From: Natrialba aegyptia DSM 13077
GTDB taxonomy: Archaea; Halobacteriota; Halobacteria; Halobacteriales; Natrialbaceae
DNA length: 64,000 bases
Reading direction: 5' to 3'
Assembly (NCBI RefSeq): GCF_000337535.1
Contig: NZ_AOIP01000032.1
Coordinates: 218,896 to 282,895, forward strand
Shown: positions 56,045 to 64,000 of the stretch, piece by piece
Layout of the letters: each line of letters begins with the position of its first letter
How positions within the stretch are numbered: the stretch's first letter is position 1
Notes under the pieces: model-generated
Database searches by the model: none
The model's input: only the letters and a program-made list of their open reading frames with translations
Told to the model about the DNA's origin: nothing
Position numbers and translations under genes: made by a program

Positions 56045-56782
56045 TCAGGGAATACGGACCGTGTGCTCGAGCGTCCCGACGCCTTCGACCTCGATTTCGA
56101 CCGCGTCGCCGTCCGAGAGCGGGCCGACGCCCTCGGGTGTGCCGGTCGCGATCACGTCGCCGGGTTCGAGCGTGAGGTGGGTCGTGATCTCGGCGATCAG
56201 TTCCGGAATCGGGAAGATGAGTTGGTCGCGCGAGCCGTCCTGTTTCACTTCGCCGTTGACTCGCGACTGCACGCGCGCGTCGTCGGGGACCTCGTCGGGC
56301 GTGGCGAGGACCGGTCCGAGCGGGGCGGACCCGTCGAAGGCCTTCCCGCGAACCCAGTTTTGCTCCTGGCGCTGATCCTCGCGGTTCGACACGTCGTTCA
56401 TGCAGGTGATGCCTTCGACGACATCCATCGCGTCGGCTTGGGAGACGTGGCGACACTGCGTCCCGATGACGACGCCGAGTTCGGCTTCGTAGTCGATCCG
56501 GTCCTTGCCGGCGGGGACGGTGACGGTATCGCCGTGGCCCGCGAGGGCGTTCGGCGGCTTCAAAAAGAGCATCGGGCGGTCCGGCAGGTCGGACCCCATC
56601 TCGTCGGCGTGGTCGGCGTAGTTGCGGCCGATGCAGACGATCTTCGAGGGCTCACACGGCGGGAGCACGTCGATCTCGTCGCTGTCGAGACTGTAGCTTT
56701 CGTTCGCGAAGTGAACGTGGCCGCTCTCGAACTCGCCGCGCCGGACTGCACCGGCCGGGTCGCGGAATCGGACGTATTTCAT
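56045..56782 (-). CDS. Fumarylacetoacetate hydrolase (FAH) family enzyme
   Basis: 245 residues with the FAH metal-binding set: YEAELGVVIG, ITCMNDVSNRE and KAFDGSAPLGP, then GDVIATGTPEGVG. Members hydrolyse or isomerise acylpyruvate-like compounds (for example 2-keto-3-deoxy acids or oxaloacetate) with Mg2+ or Mn2+. The substrate is not predictable; sugar-acid or aromatic degradation are both possible. GTTTTTGCC lies about 27 bases upstream of the ATG at 56782, and a 16-base palindrome at 56842-56857. Confidence 0.9.
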   Translation of the reverse strand: MKYVRFRDPAGAVRRGEFESGHVHFANESYSLDSDEIDVLPPCEPSKIVCIGRNYADHADEMGSDLPDRPMLFLKPPNALAGHGDTVTVPAGKDRIDYEAELGVVIGTQCRHVSQADAMDVVEGITCMNDVSNREDQRQEQNWVRGKAFDGSAPLGPVLATPDEVPDDARVQSRVNGEVKQDGSRDQLIFPIPELIAEITTHLTLEPGDVIATGTPEGVGPLSDGDAVEIEVEGVGTLEHTVRIP

Positions 56783-56841
56783 GGCCGAGGGGTTGTCTCG
56801 GCGGGGCAAAAACGTTGAGGTGGCGGCGGCGCTCGCGACCG

Positions 56842-59000: not shown

Positions 59001-59849
59001 TCACACGTACGCAGCGAGTTCAGCGGAGGCCTCGCGGGCGGCCCGGTCGGGGTCGTCGGGATGGGTGTAGAGTTCGAGCGTCGCGAAGCCGTCGTAGCCG
59101 ATGTCGTCGAGCGCGTCGAAGATGGCGCGAAAGTCGAGGTCGCCCTCGCCCGGAATCCGGTGATAGTGTTTGCCGCGACGGCCGCCGACGATGTCCTCCA
59201 GGTGGATGCCGGTGATCGCGCCGGCGCTGCGGCGAATGCTTTCGGTCGGGTCTTCGCCGTAGACGGCGGCGTGGCCGAGGTCGAGGTTGACGCCGAGCCC
59301 GTCGCGGTCGAGATCGTCGATCAGCGCGAGGGTTTCGTCGGTGTTTTCGATCAAGAGTTCGGGCTCGAACTCGATACCCACGTCGATTCCCATCGGTTCG
59401 GCGTAGTCGAGGATCTCGTGCAGCGACTCGTGAAGGTACTCGCGGGCTTCCTCGGGCGGGGTTCCCGGAAGCGGTCGTCCGGTCGCGAGACAGACCGCGG
59501 GCGCGTCGACCGCGTCGGCCAGGTCGATGGCGCGCTTCGTGTAGTCGATGCGCCACTCGCGAGCGTCCGCGTCGGCCCGGATGACGCTCGGCTCGAAGAA
59601 CGACGACGGCGGGGCATCGTCGTAGTACCCCGTCGCCGTGTTCGCGTTGATGTTCGACACCGCGAGTTCAGTTTCGTCGAGTGTATCACGGAGGTCGATC
59701 CGGGCCGCGTCGCTGAACTCGGGGAAGTACGCGTGGGGTTCGTCGCCGAGGAGTTCGACGCCGGCGTAGTCGTGGTCTGCGATGTGGCGGATCGCGTCGG
59801 ACAGCGAGTAGTGCGTGTAGGCGTTCGTCGAGAAGGCGAGGTCGACCAT
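59001..59849 (-). CDS. Xylose isomerase-like TIM-barrel protein, second copy (EboE-like)
   Basis: 282 residues, sugar phosphate isomerase/epimerase superfamily. It starts MVDLAFSTNAYTHYSLSDAI and carries metal-ligand-like positions in GIEFEPELLIE, NLDLGHAAV, GIHLEDIVG and ATLELYTHPDDP. It is clearly paralogous to the protein at 60924-61754 (shared FSTNA, YAGVE/YDGVE, LLGDEPH/LLDEPH and ELYTHP/ELYPYE positions). It has its own promoter (CCTTAGTAACC, about 27 bases upstream) and lies 107 bases after the UbiA-like gene. The substrate is unknown. Confidence 0.85.
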   Translation of the reverse strand: MVDLAFSTNAYTHYSLSDAIRHIADHDYAGVELLGDEPHAYFPEFSDAARIDLRDTLDETELAVSNINANTATGYYDDAPPSSFFEPSVIRADADAREWRIDYTKRAIDLADAVDAPAVCLATGRPLPGTPPEEAREYLHESLHEILDYAEPMGIDVGIEFEPELLIENTDETLALIDDLDRDGLGVNLDLGHAAVYGEDPTESIRRSAGAITGIHLEDIVGGRRGKHYHRIPGEGDLDFRAIFDALDDIGYDGFATLELYTHPDDPDRAAREASAELAAYV

Positions 59850-59956
59850 GGGCGGGGTACACCGATGGGTTACTAAGGGGTTTGTGCGGGGTGTGCAGGG
59901 ATGGTATGACGGGGAACGAGTCGAGGGTGGCCAGGGTGGAATTGCGAGATTACGTG

Positions 59957-60922
59957 TCACGTGACATCGAACACGCGCGCGAGGCCGACCGCCGGGACGA
60001 GAAACGCGCCGGCGAGGAGTCCCCAGCCGAGTCCGGCCACGGTGGCGAAGGCCGCGTCGAGGAGGACGAGCCCGAGCACGCAGGCACCGACCGCGGGGCC
60101 GACGGTCGCCGGAACGGGATCCGCGTAGGCGGCGCGAAGCGGGCGGCCGACCCACCAGCAGAAGGCGACGGCGAAGGCGACGGCCGCCGCGGTTTCGAGC
60201 GGCGGCGGCCGAACGGCGACGAGAAGTCGGACGAGAACCGCGAGCGCCGCGAGCGCGCCCGCGGCGGCGACGACGACCGCGTCCCTGTTCCCACCCTCGG
60301 TCTCGCGCGCCGCCATGAACGTTACGGCGGCGATGTAGGCGACGACGACCGCCGGGACGGCGAGCAGCGTCGGCCCGAGTTCAGTCAGACCCGGGTCGCC
60401 CGCCCCAGCGGTCGCTCCGGTGACGCCGAGGAGGACGTTCAGCCCGCGAGTCGTCCCCATCGCGAGAAAGCCCGCAGCCGTGCCCTTGAGCGCGCCGTCG
60501 TAGAGAACGATCGCACCGGCGAGCGCAGCGGCGACGGCCGCGGCCGTGGCCCCGGCGACGCCGAACGCGACGGCGACGGCCACGACCAGGAGTGCGGCAC
60601 CGAATCCGAACGCGCTCCGGCGGGAGATGCGGCCGGACGGGATCGGGCGCTCGGGGCGCTCGCGGGCGTCGATCGGCGCGTCGAACGCATCGTTGAGCGT
60701 CGTCCCGGCGGCGTATAGCAGGACGGAGACGACGGCGAGGCCCGCGCCGGTTGGAATTGCGAGTTCAGCACCGGCGACCGAGGCGAGTGCCGCGCCGAGG
60801 ACGACATCGGACGGAGCGGTAAAGAGGTTCGGAACGCGAACCAGTTCGGCGATATCGGCGAGGGTCGGGCGGAGCGAGCGGTCGCGCGCGTCGTCGTTGC
60901 AATCGACGCCGCCGCCGACCAC
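59957..60922 (-). CDS. UbiA-like membrane prenyltransferase family protein (EboC-like)
   Basis: 321 residues, about nine helices. The first Asp-rich motif is present: NDAFDAPID (77-85). The second UbiA motif (normally DxxxD) is replaced by RETEGG in TFMAARETEGG, and a TRGLNVLLG segment follows helix 5, both features I associate with EboC-type rather than classical UbiA proteins. It starts with GTG at 60922, one base after the stop of the upstream TIM-barrel gene, so they are one operon. A role in lipid- or prenyl-linked small-molecule handling is inferred. Confidence 0.85.
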   Translation of the reverse strand: MVGGGVDCNDDARDRSLRPTLADIAELVRVPNLFTAPSDVVLGAALASVAGAELAIPTGAGLAVVSVLLYAAGTTLNDAFDAPIDARERPERPIPSGRISRRSAFGFGAALLVVAVAVAFGVAGATAAAVAAALAGAIVLYDGALKGTAAGFLAMGTTRGLNVLLGVTGATAGAGDPGLTELGPTLLAVPAVVVAYIAAVTFMAARETEGGNRDAVVVAAAGALAALAVLVRLLVAVRPPPLETAAAVAFAVAFCWWVGRPLRAAYADPVPATVGPAVGACVLGLVLLDAAFATVAGLGWGLLAGAFLVPAVGLARVFDVT

Positions 60923-60923
60923 C

Positions 60924-61754
60924 CTACGCCCACCCGCGTTCCTCGAGGTACGCCATCGCCCCGCGGGCGGTCTCGACCGGCGTCTCCTCGTAGGGATAGA
61001 GTTCGATCGTGACGAAGCCGTCGTAGCCGCGGTCGTCGAGTTCGCCGAGGAACCCGTCGATGTCCATCGACCCCTCGCCGAGTTGGGTGTGTTCGTGCCG
61101 GCGGTCCGCGGGAATGTCCTCCAGGTGGTAGTGAGTCGTGAACTCGTCGAGGTCCGCGACCAGCGCGGTGGGGTCCTCGCCGACGCAGTAGAGGTGCCCG
61201 GCGTCGAAGTTACACCGGACGCGCTCCGAGTCGATGCGCGCGACCAGGTCGAAGAACTCGTCGGACGTTTCGATCAGGAGGTCGGGTTCGGGTTCGACCA
61301 TGACGTCGACGCCGACTGCCTCGGCGCGCTCCGCGACCTCGCGGAGGCCGTCGACGAACGTGTCCGTGGCCCACTCGCGGGATTTCCCCTCGGGAATCGG
61401 GCCGCCGGGTTCGATCGAAATGTGGGGCGCGCCGAGGTCGGCGGCGGTATCGAGCGCCGCGAGGGTGTAGTCGATCCGCTCGCGGCGGTAGTCCGCGTCG
61501 GGTTCGATAAACGAGGGGTGGTGAAAGTCCTCGATCGCCGTCAGCATGAACGCGTTCGCGTTGCTGATGGCGATGTCGTTGTCGTCGAGGACGGTGCGGA
61601 CGCGTGCGACCTCCTCTTCGGTCGCGTTCGGCGGGTAGAGGTGAGGCTCGTCGAGCAAGATTTCGACGCCATCGTAGCCCGCGGCGGCGAGTTCTTCGAT
61701 CGCGTCCTCGAGTTGGTACTCCCTGAAGGCGTTGGTGGAGAAGCCAAACTGCAT
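60924..61754 (-). CDS. Xylose isomerase-like TIM-barrel protein, operon copy (EboE-like)
   Basis: 276 residues, starting MQFGFSTNAFREYQLEDAIEEL. Likely metal ligands occur in MVEPEPDLLIE, NFDAGHLYC, HYHLEDIP and VTIELYPYEE. The superfamily isomerises or epimerises sugars and inositol derivatives. It is sandwiched in a tight operon: its ATG is 3 bases after the TatD-like stop and its stop is 1 base before the UbiA-like GTG. The paralogue at 59001-59849 follows downstream. Confidence 0.87.
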   Translation of the reverse strand: MQFGFSTNAFREYQLEDAIEELAAAGYDGVEILLDEPHLYPPNATEEEVARVRTVLDDNDIAISNANAFMLTAIEDFHHPSFIEPDADYRRERIDYTLAALDTAADLGAPHISIEPGGPIPEGKSREWATDTFVDGLREVAERAEAVGVDVMVEPEPDLLIETSDEFFDLVARIDSERVRCNFDAGHLYCVGEDPTALVADLDEFTTHYHLEDIPADRRHEHTQLGEGSMDIDGFLGELDDRGYDGFVTIELYPYEETPVETARGAMAYLEERGWA

Positions 61755-61757
61755 GGG

Positions 61758-62558
61758 TCAGGCCTCGTACTCGAAGTTCGGCGACTGCTCGAAGAACTCG
61801 TAGGGGTTCTCGAAGACGACTTTGCGGACCTCCTCGCGGTCCCATCCCCGGTCGATCATCTCGTCGCGGGCCTTGGGAACCGCGAGCGGGTCCGACGGGT
61901 CCCAGTCGGCGGCGCTGTTGAAGATCATGTTGTCGGTGCCGTACTCCTCCAGGAGGTCGATCGCCGCATCGGCCTCGATCTTGCCGGGGTAGAGGGTAAA
62001 GCCGATCCAGCAGTCGGTCCGCGCGGAGATATCGATCGTGTGCTCCGTGTTGTGGTCGATGATGATCCGGTCCTGGGTGACGCCCATCTCTTCGATGATC
62101 TCGACGATGCGCTCGGTACCGGCCGGCTTGTCGGTGTGGGGGGTGTGGACGATGACGGGGAGGTCGCGGTTCTCGGCGATCTCGAGTTGTTCGCGGAAGG
62201 CCCACTCCTCGTCGTCGGTCACCTGGTCGAAGCCGATCTCGCCGACGCCGACGACGGGGTCGCGATCCAAGTACTCGGGGATGCGCTCGAGGACCTCCTC
62301 GGCCATGTCCCGATAGTTCGCCTCCTTCGGTTCGAGTCCGATCGTGACGTAGTGGTCCACGTTCGCCGTCCGCTCGGCGCGATCGGTCTCGTGCCCGATG
62401 ATCTGTTCGAAGTAATCGAAAAACGCACCCGCGTGATGCTTGTCCTGCCCGCTCCAGAACGCCGGCTCGATGCAGCACTCGATGCCGGCGCGACGCGCCC
62501 GTTTGTAGTCGTCCGCGGCGCGTGACACCATGTGCATGTGCGGGTCGATAATGCGCAT
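61758..62558 (-). CDS. TatD family metal-dependent hydrolase (EboB-like)
   Basis: 266 residues with the TatD/amidohydrolase metal set: DPHMHM (5-10), GEIGFD, VHTPH, IDHNTEH and a late Asp in SAADWDP. TatD proteins are nucleases or hydrolases; members in Ebo clusters act on unknown metabolites. It is the first gene of the operon, divergent from the inositol-3-phosphate synthase gene with a 301-base spacer. CCCAAAAGCG about 27 bases upstream is a weak TATA candidate. Confidence 0.88.
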   Translation of the reverse strand: MRIIDPHMHMVSRAADDYKRARRAGIECCIEPAFWSGQDKHHAGAFFDYFEQIIGHETDRAERTANVDHYVTIGLEPKEANYRDMAEEVLERIPEYLDRDPVVGVGEIGFDQVTDDEEWAFREQLEIAENRDLPVIVHTPHTDKPAGTERIVEIIEEMGVTQDRIIIDHNTEHTIDISARTDCWIGFTLYPGKIEADAAIDLLEEYGTDNMIFNSAADWDPSDPLAVPKARDEMIDRGWDREEVRKVVFENPYEFFEQSPNFEYEA

Positions 62559-62859
62559 AACCGCAGTACGGCGATGACTCGCTTTTGGGATGTCGGTCGT
62601 TCACACGAGCAACCTCCCGTTGTCCCTGAATGACGGTGGCGCGACTCGCGGGGAATATCGTGTTACGAACGCTCAATACGGGTTTACGCGTGCTACGCCG
62701 GGCATAACAAAAGCCGTGCCGAACGGAGGGCTTCCGGATGACCGACCACTCCCGGTCGCCGTCGACGAACTCGCGACCGATCGCGCGACGATCGCCGCGG
62801 ACCGCTGGAGAACTCGACAGAACGAATCGTGCCCGACCGTCGACCCTCGGCGGGGCCAA
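62559..62859. other. Divergent spacer with a coupled leader ORF before the inositol-3-phosphate synthase gene
   Basis: On the plus strand a 41-codon frame (ATG 62738, GGAGGG 8 bases before it) ends in TGA at 62861-62863, overlapping the synthase ATG (ATGA). Its Ser/Arg/Pro-rich product is not typical of haloarchaeal proteins. The synthase frame is itself open back to 62590. Possible TATA elements are GGGTTTACGC (62677-62686) and GCATAACAAAAG (62702-62713). Either a leader peptide or an extended synthase N-terminus is possible. Confidence 0.4.
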
Positions 62860-64000
62860 ATGACCGCCGAGTCACCGTCCCGGGACGAGCCGGCCCAGCC
62901 GACGAACGCGGAGCGAATCGGCGTCTGGCTCGTCGGTGCGCGTGGGAACGTCGCAACCATGTCGATCGTCGGCGCTCGGGCGATCGCGACCGGTCGCGCC
63001 GAGACGACCGGCATGGTTACCGAGCGCGAACCCGTCTCGAGCCTCGAGCTGCCGCCCGTTTCGGCGTTCGTCTTTGGCGGCCACGACATCGACCCGACCT
63101 CGCTCGTCGACCAGGCCGAGCGCCAGTGCGAGCGAAACGGCGTCCCCGACGAGGAGACGCTCGCAAGCGTCCGCGACGACCTCGCCGCCGTGGACGAGCG
63201 CATCGAAGTCGGCACGGCGGTAAACTGCGGGGCCGCCGTCACGGACGACAGCGACCACCTCGATCGCGAACTCGCGATACGAACCGTCGTCGACCAGATC
63301 CACGACGACTACGAGTCCTTCCGGACCGCCCACGAGATCGATCGACTCGTCGTCGTCAACGTCGCCTCCACCGAACCCGAACTCGCCTCGCCGGACCGAT
63401 ACGATACCCGCGAGGCGCTCGAGGACGCCATCGATTCGGACGATCGCGACCTGCCTGCGAGCGTCCTCTACGCCTACGCCGCGATCGACGCGGGCCACCC
63501 CTTCATCAACTTCACGCCGAGCACGGGCAACGCCCTCGGCGGGATCCGAGAACTCGCCGTCGACCGCGGGGTGCCACACGTGGGCCGCGACGCCAAGACC
63601 GGCGAGACGCTGGTCAAGTCCGCGCTCGCGCCGATGTTCGCCGGCCGCAATCTGAACGTGCTCTCCTGGGAGGGCCACAACATCCTCGGCAACAAGGACG
63701 GCCTCGTGCTGGAGGACGAGGAAAACGCCGCCGGCAAACTGTCGAGCAAGGGTGACGTGCTCGAATCCATCCTGCCCGATGTCGGCCACAACCGCGTCCG
63801 GATCGACTACACGCCCTCGCTCGCGGACTGGAAGACCGCCTGGGACTACATCCATTTCGAGGGCTTTCTGAACACCGAAATGACGATGCAGTTCACCTGG
63901 GAGGGCTCGGACTCGGCCCTGGCCGCGCCGCTCGTGCTCGATCTGGTCCGACTGATCGTCCACGCCGACGAGTTCGGCGAGGGCGGCTTCCAACCGCACC
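62860..64000 (+). CDS. Inositol-3-phosphate synthase, C-terminus cut by window edge
   Basis: 380 codons visible, no stop before the right edge. Family motifs are clear: WLVGARGNVATMSIVG (NAD-binding), VNVASTEP, NFTPSTGNALGGIRELA, KTGETLVKSALAPMF, LSWEGHNILGNKDG and DWKTAWDYIHFEGF. The enzyme cyclises glucose 6-phosphate to inositol 3-phosphate (L-myo-inositol 1-phosphate numbering varies) with NAD+. Its sequence resembles synthases encoded in bacterial Ebo-type clusters as well as archaeal lipid-inositol enzymes. It is divergent from the TatD/TIM/UbiA operon. The ATG at 62860 starts just before the family's core. Confidence 0.9.
   Translation, partial: MTAESPSRDEPAQPTNAERIGVWLVGARGNVATMSIVGARAIATGRAETTGMVTEREPVSSLELPPVSAFVFGGHDIDPTSLVDQAERQCERNGVPDEETLASVRDDLAAVDERIEVGTAVNCGAAVTDDSDHLDRELAIRTVVDQIHDDYESFRTAHEIDRLVVVNVASTEPELASPDRYDTREALEDAIDSDDRDLPASVLYAYAAIDAGHPFINFTPSTGNALGGIRELAVDRGVPHVGRDAKTGETLVKSALAPMFAGRNLNVLSWEGHNILGNKDGLVLEDEENAAGKLSSKGDVLESILPDVGHNRVRIDYTPSLADWKTAWDYIHFEGFLNTEMTMQFTWEGSDSALAAPLVLDLVRLIVHADEFGEGGFQPH

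Follow-up and report, generated by a model that had tools for sequence, protein, structure and literature searches.

Why should a haloarchaeon encode inositol-3-phosphate synthase (INO1) beside genes that resemble parts of the bacterial ebo cluster? We addressed this question in Natrialba aegyptia DSM 13077, using a 64,000-nucleotide window of its 4.6 Mb draft genome (contig NZ_AOIP01000032.1, positions 218,896 to 282,895) and the sequence to the right of that window. An initial annotation had read five genes near the right end as an Ebo-like metabolite cluster, comprising a TatD hydrolase, two TIM barrels (here TIM1 and TIM2), an atypical UbiA-like protein and INO1. The observation holds up, and its interpretation is supported in part. 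The identity of the cluster as an INO1-type, ebo-related unit is well supported by sequence comparisons, and the unit includes a sixth gene, for a type I phosphodiesterase (PDE). Our best explanation, favored with modest confidence, is a six-gene haloarchaeal pathway of INO1 type that would lead to a prenylated, membrane-handled cyclitol.

Cluster members and their ebo relatives

The UbiA-family protein is indeed atypical and ebo-like. Its top NCBIfam model is EboC (NF035940), matched over the full length at 194 bits (cut-off 250), followed by SCO3242 (171 bits, cut-off 260). Models for standard lipid or menaquinone prenyltransferases (DGGGPS, MenA, UbiA-type) give at most 72 bits against cut-offs above 200, and this candidate identity was rejected. 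Eight further UbiA-family genes in the genome score above the Pfam cut-off and could serve the standard prenyltransferase roles. No haloarchaeal UbiA of the set reaches the EboC cut-off of 250 bits; the UbiA protein of the Mycetohabitans ebo cluster is likewise below it (110 bits). In aligned archaeal and bacterial sequences the first motif (NDxxDxxxD), Arg159 and Glu207 are invariant, and Lys146 is nearly so. The structure model is confident (pLDDT 92) and its nearest fold is DGGGP synthase, an enzyme that transfers a prenyl chain onto the hydroxyl of a phosphorylated polyol. In other Halobacteriota, most EboC matches cover only part of the length and scores are far lower, the pattern expected of DGGGP-synthase-like proteins.

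The TatD protein had been taken to be of ebo type, and this view holds. Full-length identity to the closest annotated bacterial proteins, which are TatD hydrolases encoded beside EboA genes, is 45%, and the metal ligands are conserved. In a TatD tree all haloarchaeal proteins form one clade (support 99), which adjoins, on long branches, the protein of an unclassified bacterium (locus L163). Identity, ligands and tree position thus point to an EboB-like protein, although no curated EboB model came up. In other Halobacteriota, TatD relatives are only ~30% identical, and no ebo-type genes adjoin them at the 12 loci examined.

An alkaline-phosphatase-family gene had been predicted to the right, and a PF01663 PDE is encoded directly outside the window. 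The archaeal and bacterial proteins have in common the signature SEYG (nucleotide pyrophosphatase has SDHG), HLDY..Q and GSHG. Because this unusual signature is shared with the bacterial proteins, we regard the PDE as EboF-like.

INO1 is present as a single copy in the genome. Its closest solved structure is the myo-inositol-1-phosphate synthase (mIPS) of Archaeoglobus (AF_1794, 1u1i). Lys304, Lys308, Lys336, Lys397 and Asn285 align with the catalytic positions of that enzyme and do not vary among 34 haloarchaeal sequences. The Pfam domains and these residues identify a probable myo-inositol-1-phosphate synthase, with predicted activity on glucose-6-phosphate. A mycothiol-type INO1 was considered and rejected (34 bits vs 638). 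EboA and EboD, which had not been visible in the window, are not found genome-wide: EboA (NF035938) has no match at E<=1 in the whole genome, and there is no PF01761 match (EboD or dehydroquinate (DHQ) synthase) anywhere in it.

Assignment of the TIM barrels to EboE (NF035939) fails: the cut-off is 250 bits and they reach 22 and 27; profile comparison is also against it. They are instead a different pair of paralogues (42% identity at profile level), whose relatives are the TIM barrels of INO1-type bacterial ebo clusters. Identity is 40-43% to the proteobacterial TIM2 and, at profile level, 23-25% to the actinobacterial barrel. The metal ligands of both barrels are conserved. A TIM2 structure model (pLDDT 90) is nearest to the isomerase Art22 and to ketose 3-epimerases.

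INO1 and EboD in bacterial loci

Scanning with the TatD alignment yielded 80 named loci for comparison. Three layouts can be distinguished: classic ebo with EboD; an actinobacterial INO1-UbiA-TIM-EboA-EboB-EboE-EboF arrangement, in some cases with EboA undetectable; and the haloarchaeal arrangement, the gene set of which also occurs in the unclassified bacterium at L163. The statement that some bacterial ebo clusters carry inositol-3-phosphate synthase is borne out by the actinobacterial loci. INO1 and a TIM barrel replace EboD beside ebo genes there, in some gamma- and betaproteobacteria and in a Rokubacterium.

EboD is encoded in 23 of the 80 loci, INO1 and/or the INO1-associated TIM barrel in 48, and both in none. 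Five proteobacterial or Rokubacterial loci at first appeared to have no cyclase; INO1 was found in all five genomes, and in three of them it shares the contig of the locus at a distance of ~11 kb. Several conserved genes (29-59% identity) fill the ~11 kb between INO1 and the remaining genes in the proteobacterial INO1-type loci L246, L248 and L249. Four of six EboD-type genomes checked lack any INO1, and the other two have it elsewhere. Scored on the TatD tree, with nine loci without an assigned cyclase excluded, 51 INO1-type and 25 EboD-type rows (n=76) show zero overlap.

INO1 thus appears to occupy the slot of EboD, the DHQ-synthase-like cyclase of most other bacterial ebo clusters. The suggested role of INO1 as cyclitol supplier gains weight, since it never shares a locus with EboD; the nature of the compound, its prenylation and how it is handled at the membrane keep the standing of proposals. 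The replacement fits the cyclitol part of the isoprenoid-cyclitol that was proposed as the bacterial ebo product in 2016 (Yurchenko et al., 2016; PMC5133447).

Distribution in haloarchaea

We surveyed 292 haloarchaeal genomes from 77 genera (G and L numbers are genome and locus labels). The EboC-like UbiA was found in 38 genomes and 16 genera, and most of these carriers have TatD-TIM1-UbiA-TIM2 and PDE-INO1 together. The anticipated co-occurrence in other haloarchaea is therefore real, and recurrence in 38 of 292 genomes indicates that the arrangement is not due to chance. INO1 was identified in all 38 carriers and in only two other genomes (40 of 292 in total). One of those two INO1 proteins is a divergent relative (28%), and neither genome has the TatD of the cluster. 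Genus codes g2 and g3 include both carriers and non-carriers, and within them UbiA and INO1 vary together, so the association does not reflect one ancient event.

Variants of the arrangement occur. The PDE-INO1 pair is retained in G250 and G256, elsewhere in the genome and unlinked from the other genes; INO1 lies on its own elsewhere in G020; no PDE is nearby in G265; and all six genes are on a single strand in G183. In G272 the cluster occurs a second time in broken form (L121), with INO1 split across several frames. A close INO1 (63%) is encoded on a Halomarina plasmid (L237) within a glycosyltransferase cluster, without ebo-type genes. A tblastn search with UbiA against a plasmid collection gave no match; known carriers are in that collection, so the blank most likely reflects low-complexity masking rather than absence.

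Named carriers include Halorussus aquaticus, Halobellus inordinatus, Halocatena salina and Natronococcus sp. CG52. The control genome, that of Haloferax volcanii, also matches EboC and INO1; since non-carrier haloarchaea fell short of the same EboC threshold, this species probably has the cluster. Its INO1 is listed as HVO_B0213 (PMC8305020).

That gene is placed under polar-lipid biosynthesis (PMC8305020), and archaetidylinositol is relatively common among archaeal lipids (PMC9385802). INO1 might thus supply inositol phosphate for the archaetidylinositol headgroup, with its neighbors separate in function. We consider this unlikely, as just 40 of 292 haloarchaea encode INO1, almost all of them alongside the cluster, the six genes include no CDP-alcohol transferase, and the same type of INO1 is found in bacterial ebo clusters. 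The findings suggest that haloarchaeal INO1 serves mainly the ebo-related pathway and not general polar lipids.

Organization of the locus and neighboring genes

All five window genes are open frames at the positions first assigned to them, and their Pfam families and tight packing are as initially described (Table 1). UbiA and TIM1 are separated by 1 base, and TIM1 and TatD by 3 bases. The PDE gene overlaps the end of INO1 by 4 bases, from which we infer a unit of six genes in two divergent transcripts (INO1 and PDE versus TatD, TIM1, UbiA and TIM2). Between the transcripts, the element TTAC-N4-CTACG-N3-G-CATAAC-N-AA is kept in 12 of 12 Natrialbaceae loci compared. An INO1 start at 62860 is favored over one at 62590 because the longer frame would span this element.

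Table 1. Features of the N. aegyptia cluster, in window coordinates.
Feature	Position	Strand	Family or model
TIM2, xylose-isomerase-like TIM barrel, 282 aa	59001..59849	-	PF01261
EboC-like UbiA-family membrane protein, 321 aa, GTG start	59957..60922	-	PF01040; NF035940 194 bits, full length
TIM1, xylose-isomerase-like TIM barrel, TIM2 paralogue, 276 aa	60924..61754	-	PF01261
EboB-like TatD-family metal-dependent hydrolase, 266 aa	61758..62558	-	PF01026
Conserved non-coding element between divergent transcripts	62681..62712	.	Candidate operator/promoter (possibly two-way)
INO1, inositol-3-phosphate synthase	~62860..64101 (past window end at 64000)	+	PF07994 + PF01658
EboF-like type I PDE, 469 aa	64098..65507 (right of window)		PF01663

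In several Natrialbaceae a fumarylacetoacetate-hydrolase-like gene (56045-56785 in N. aegyptia) directly follows TIM2 on the same strand; in the N. aegyptia window, HTH_10 regulator-like and methyltransferase genes separate the two. A second UbiA-family gene (73215-74087; best model PRK13591, 64 bits) lies ~8 kb to the right of the cluster, outside the conserved unit. Also near the cluster, at 67197-72262, are a gene resembling those of pyrroloquinoline quinone (PQQ)-dependent alcohol dehydrogenases and one for a sugar dehydrogenase with a fused copper-binding domain.

In 8 of 16 genomes, versus 0.46 expected, the 12 kb around the cluster include a PF07995 gene (PQQ-type sugar dehydrogenase), a figure to be taken as a lead only, because the distance was set after the data were seen and shared sugar-metabolism islands may be involved. 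With the ABC transporter genes that come after the cluster in Halocatena salina, it raises the idea of a sugar or cyclitol utilization cluster, in which TIM-barrel isomerases and hydrolases act on an imported sugar. Of the alternatives considered here we judge this the least probable: INO1 is biosynthetic, sugar catabolism offers no role for a UbiA membrane protein, neither the dehydrogenases nor the transporters belong to the conserved six-gene unit, and the Streptomyces relatives adjoin nonribosomal peptide synthetase genes.

Proposed pathway

Given the conserved catalytic residues, INO1 is predicted to cyclize glucose-6-phosphate to 1L-myo-inositol-1-phosphate. The UbiA protein may then add a polyprenyl chain to the INO1-derived cyclitol, as DGGGP synthase does to a phosphorylated polyol. 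The metal-binding TIM1, TIM2 and TatD proteins could epimerize or trim the ring, and the PDE could cleave or remove phosphate. The order of these steps is conjectural. Such a pathway would yield a membrane-anchored prenyl-cyclitol, which may be a carrier or cofactor behind the ebo "metabolite traffic" in Nostoc.

Several points weigh against this reading. To our knowledge, none of the ebo gene sets has been tied to a product or an activity. The haloarchaeal unit lacks EboA and EboE, which most bacterial clusters have, and in Haloarcula pellucida the cluster is present and INO1 was not found in the assembly. The TatD tree implies two switches between INO1 and EboD on starred branches and five in all; with only 2 to 5 independent switches, the mutual exclusion makes a strong pattern but a weak test of independent events. 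The match of the UbiA model to DGGGP synthase (6m31, 7bpu) is moderate (TM-score ~0.6), at 19-20% identity. In addition, the second acidic motif of UbiA is altered. This alteration could signal that the protein is a non-enzymatic membrane anchor or part of an exporter, and the cluster export machinery rather than a biosynthetic unit. Such a role seems improbable, somewhat more so than lipid headgroup synthesis, since NDxxDxxxD, Arg159 and Glu207 are invariant, and Lys146 nearly so, in the archaeal and bacterial alignment, and the partner genes are enzyme-like with conserved active-site residues.

The prenyl-cyclitol pathway remains our preferred explanation. A broader and distinctly tentative extension of it is that archaeal and bacterial INO1-type ebo clusters produce membrane molecules of a new class, in which a polyprenyl chain is ether-linked to an inositol-type cyclitol. 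These might serve as lipid carriers or cofactors when exported metabolites are moved or matured. Use of the well-understood INO1 by one ebo branch supports a cyclitol start and names a likely cyclitol, inositol phosphate, which could be traced with labelled inositol. The findings also extend the ebo system to archaea, and it appears that the genetically tractable Haloferax volcanii is among them.

Comparison with known systems

In the open-licence literature we found no description of archaeal ebo clusters or of INO1 as an EboD substitute, and an earlier description elsewhere is possible; searches on SCO3241-3244, ebo with inositol, and Art22 gave nothing useful. The word "inositol" is absent from both ebo papers (PMC5133447, PMC6282210), and the passages found in them show no archaeal ebo cluster. 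The latter paper showed that Nostoc ebo mutants fail at transfer of the scytonemin monomer to the periplasm (Klicki et al., 2018).

Individual members have counterparts in solved structures. INO1 shares every catalytic Lys/Asn position with Archaeoglobus fulgidus mIPS (AF_1794, 1u1i), but the haloarchaeal gene lies within an ebo-related cluster. The UbiA protein has the fold and the NDxxDxxxD motif of archaeal DGGGP synthase (6m31, 7bpu), and differs in the second motif and in its low scores (<=72 bits) with DGGGPS-type models.

As in bacterial eboA-F (PMC5133447, PMC6282210), an EboB-like TatD, an EboC-like UbiA, an EboF-like PDE, a sugar-phosphate cyclase and a TIM barrel are clustered. Unlike it, the archaeal cluster lacks EboA, EboD and EboE, its cyclase is INO1, and its two barrels are of another family. 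Bacterium isolate R3-B46 (L163) encodes INO1, PDE, TIM2, TatD, TIM1 and UbiA, while EboA, EboD and EboE were not found there; identities are ~35-47%, the gene order is different and the host is a bacterium.

The actinobacterial INO1-SCO3242-TIM-EboA-EboB-EboE-EboF cluster (Streptomyces sp. NBC_00376, L100) shares INO1 (46%), UbiA, a non-EboE barrel, TatD (45%) and PDE. It differs in having EboA and EboE, a single barrel distantly related to TIM1 and TIM2, a separate TatD clade, and a UbiA that passes the SCO3242 model, for which the haloarchaeal protein falls short (171 bits, cut-off 260). With INO1 present, EboA and EboE absent and UbiA below threshold, the haloarchaeal cluster does not belong to the actinobacterial type, yet by gene families this is the closest annotated layout. 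Nor is it a canonical ebo cluster, because EboA, EboD and EboE were searched for and not found and UbiA is under the EboC cut-off. The haloarchaeal unit appears to be a relative of ebo and could function in a similar way.

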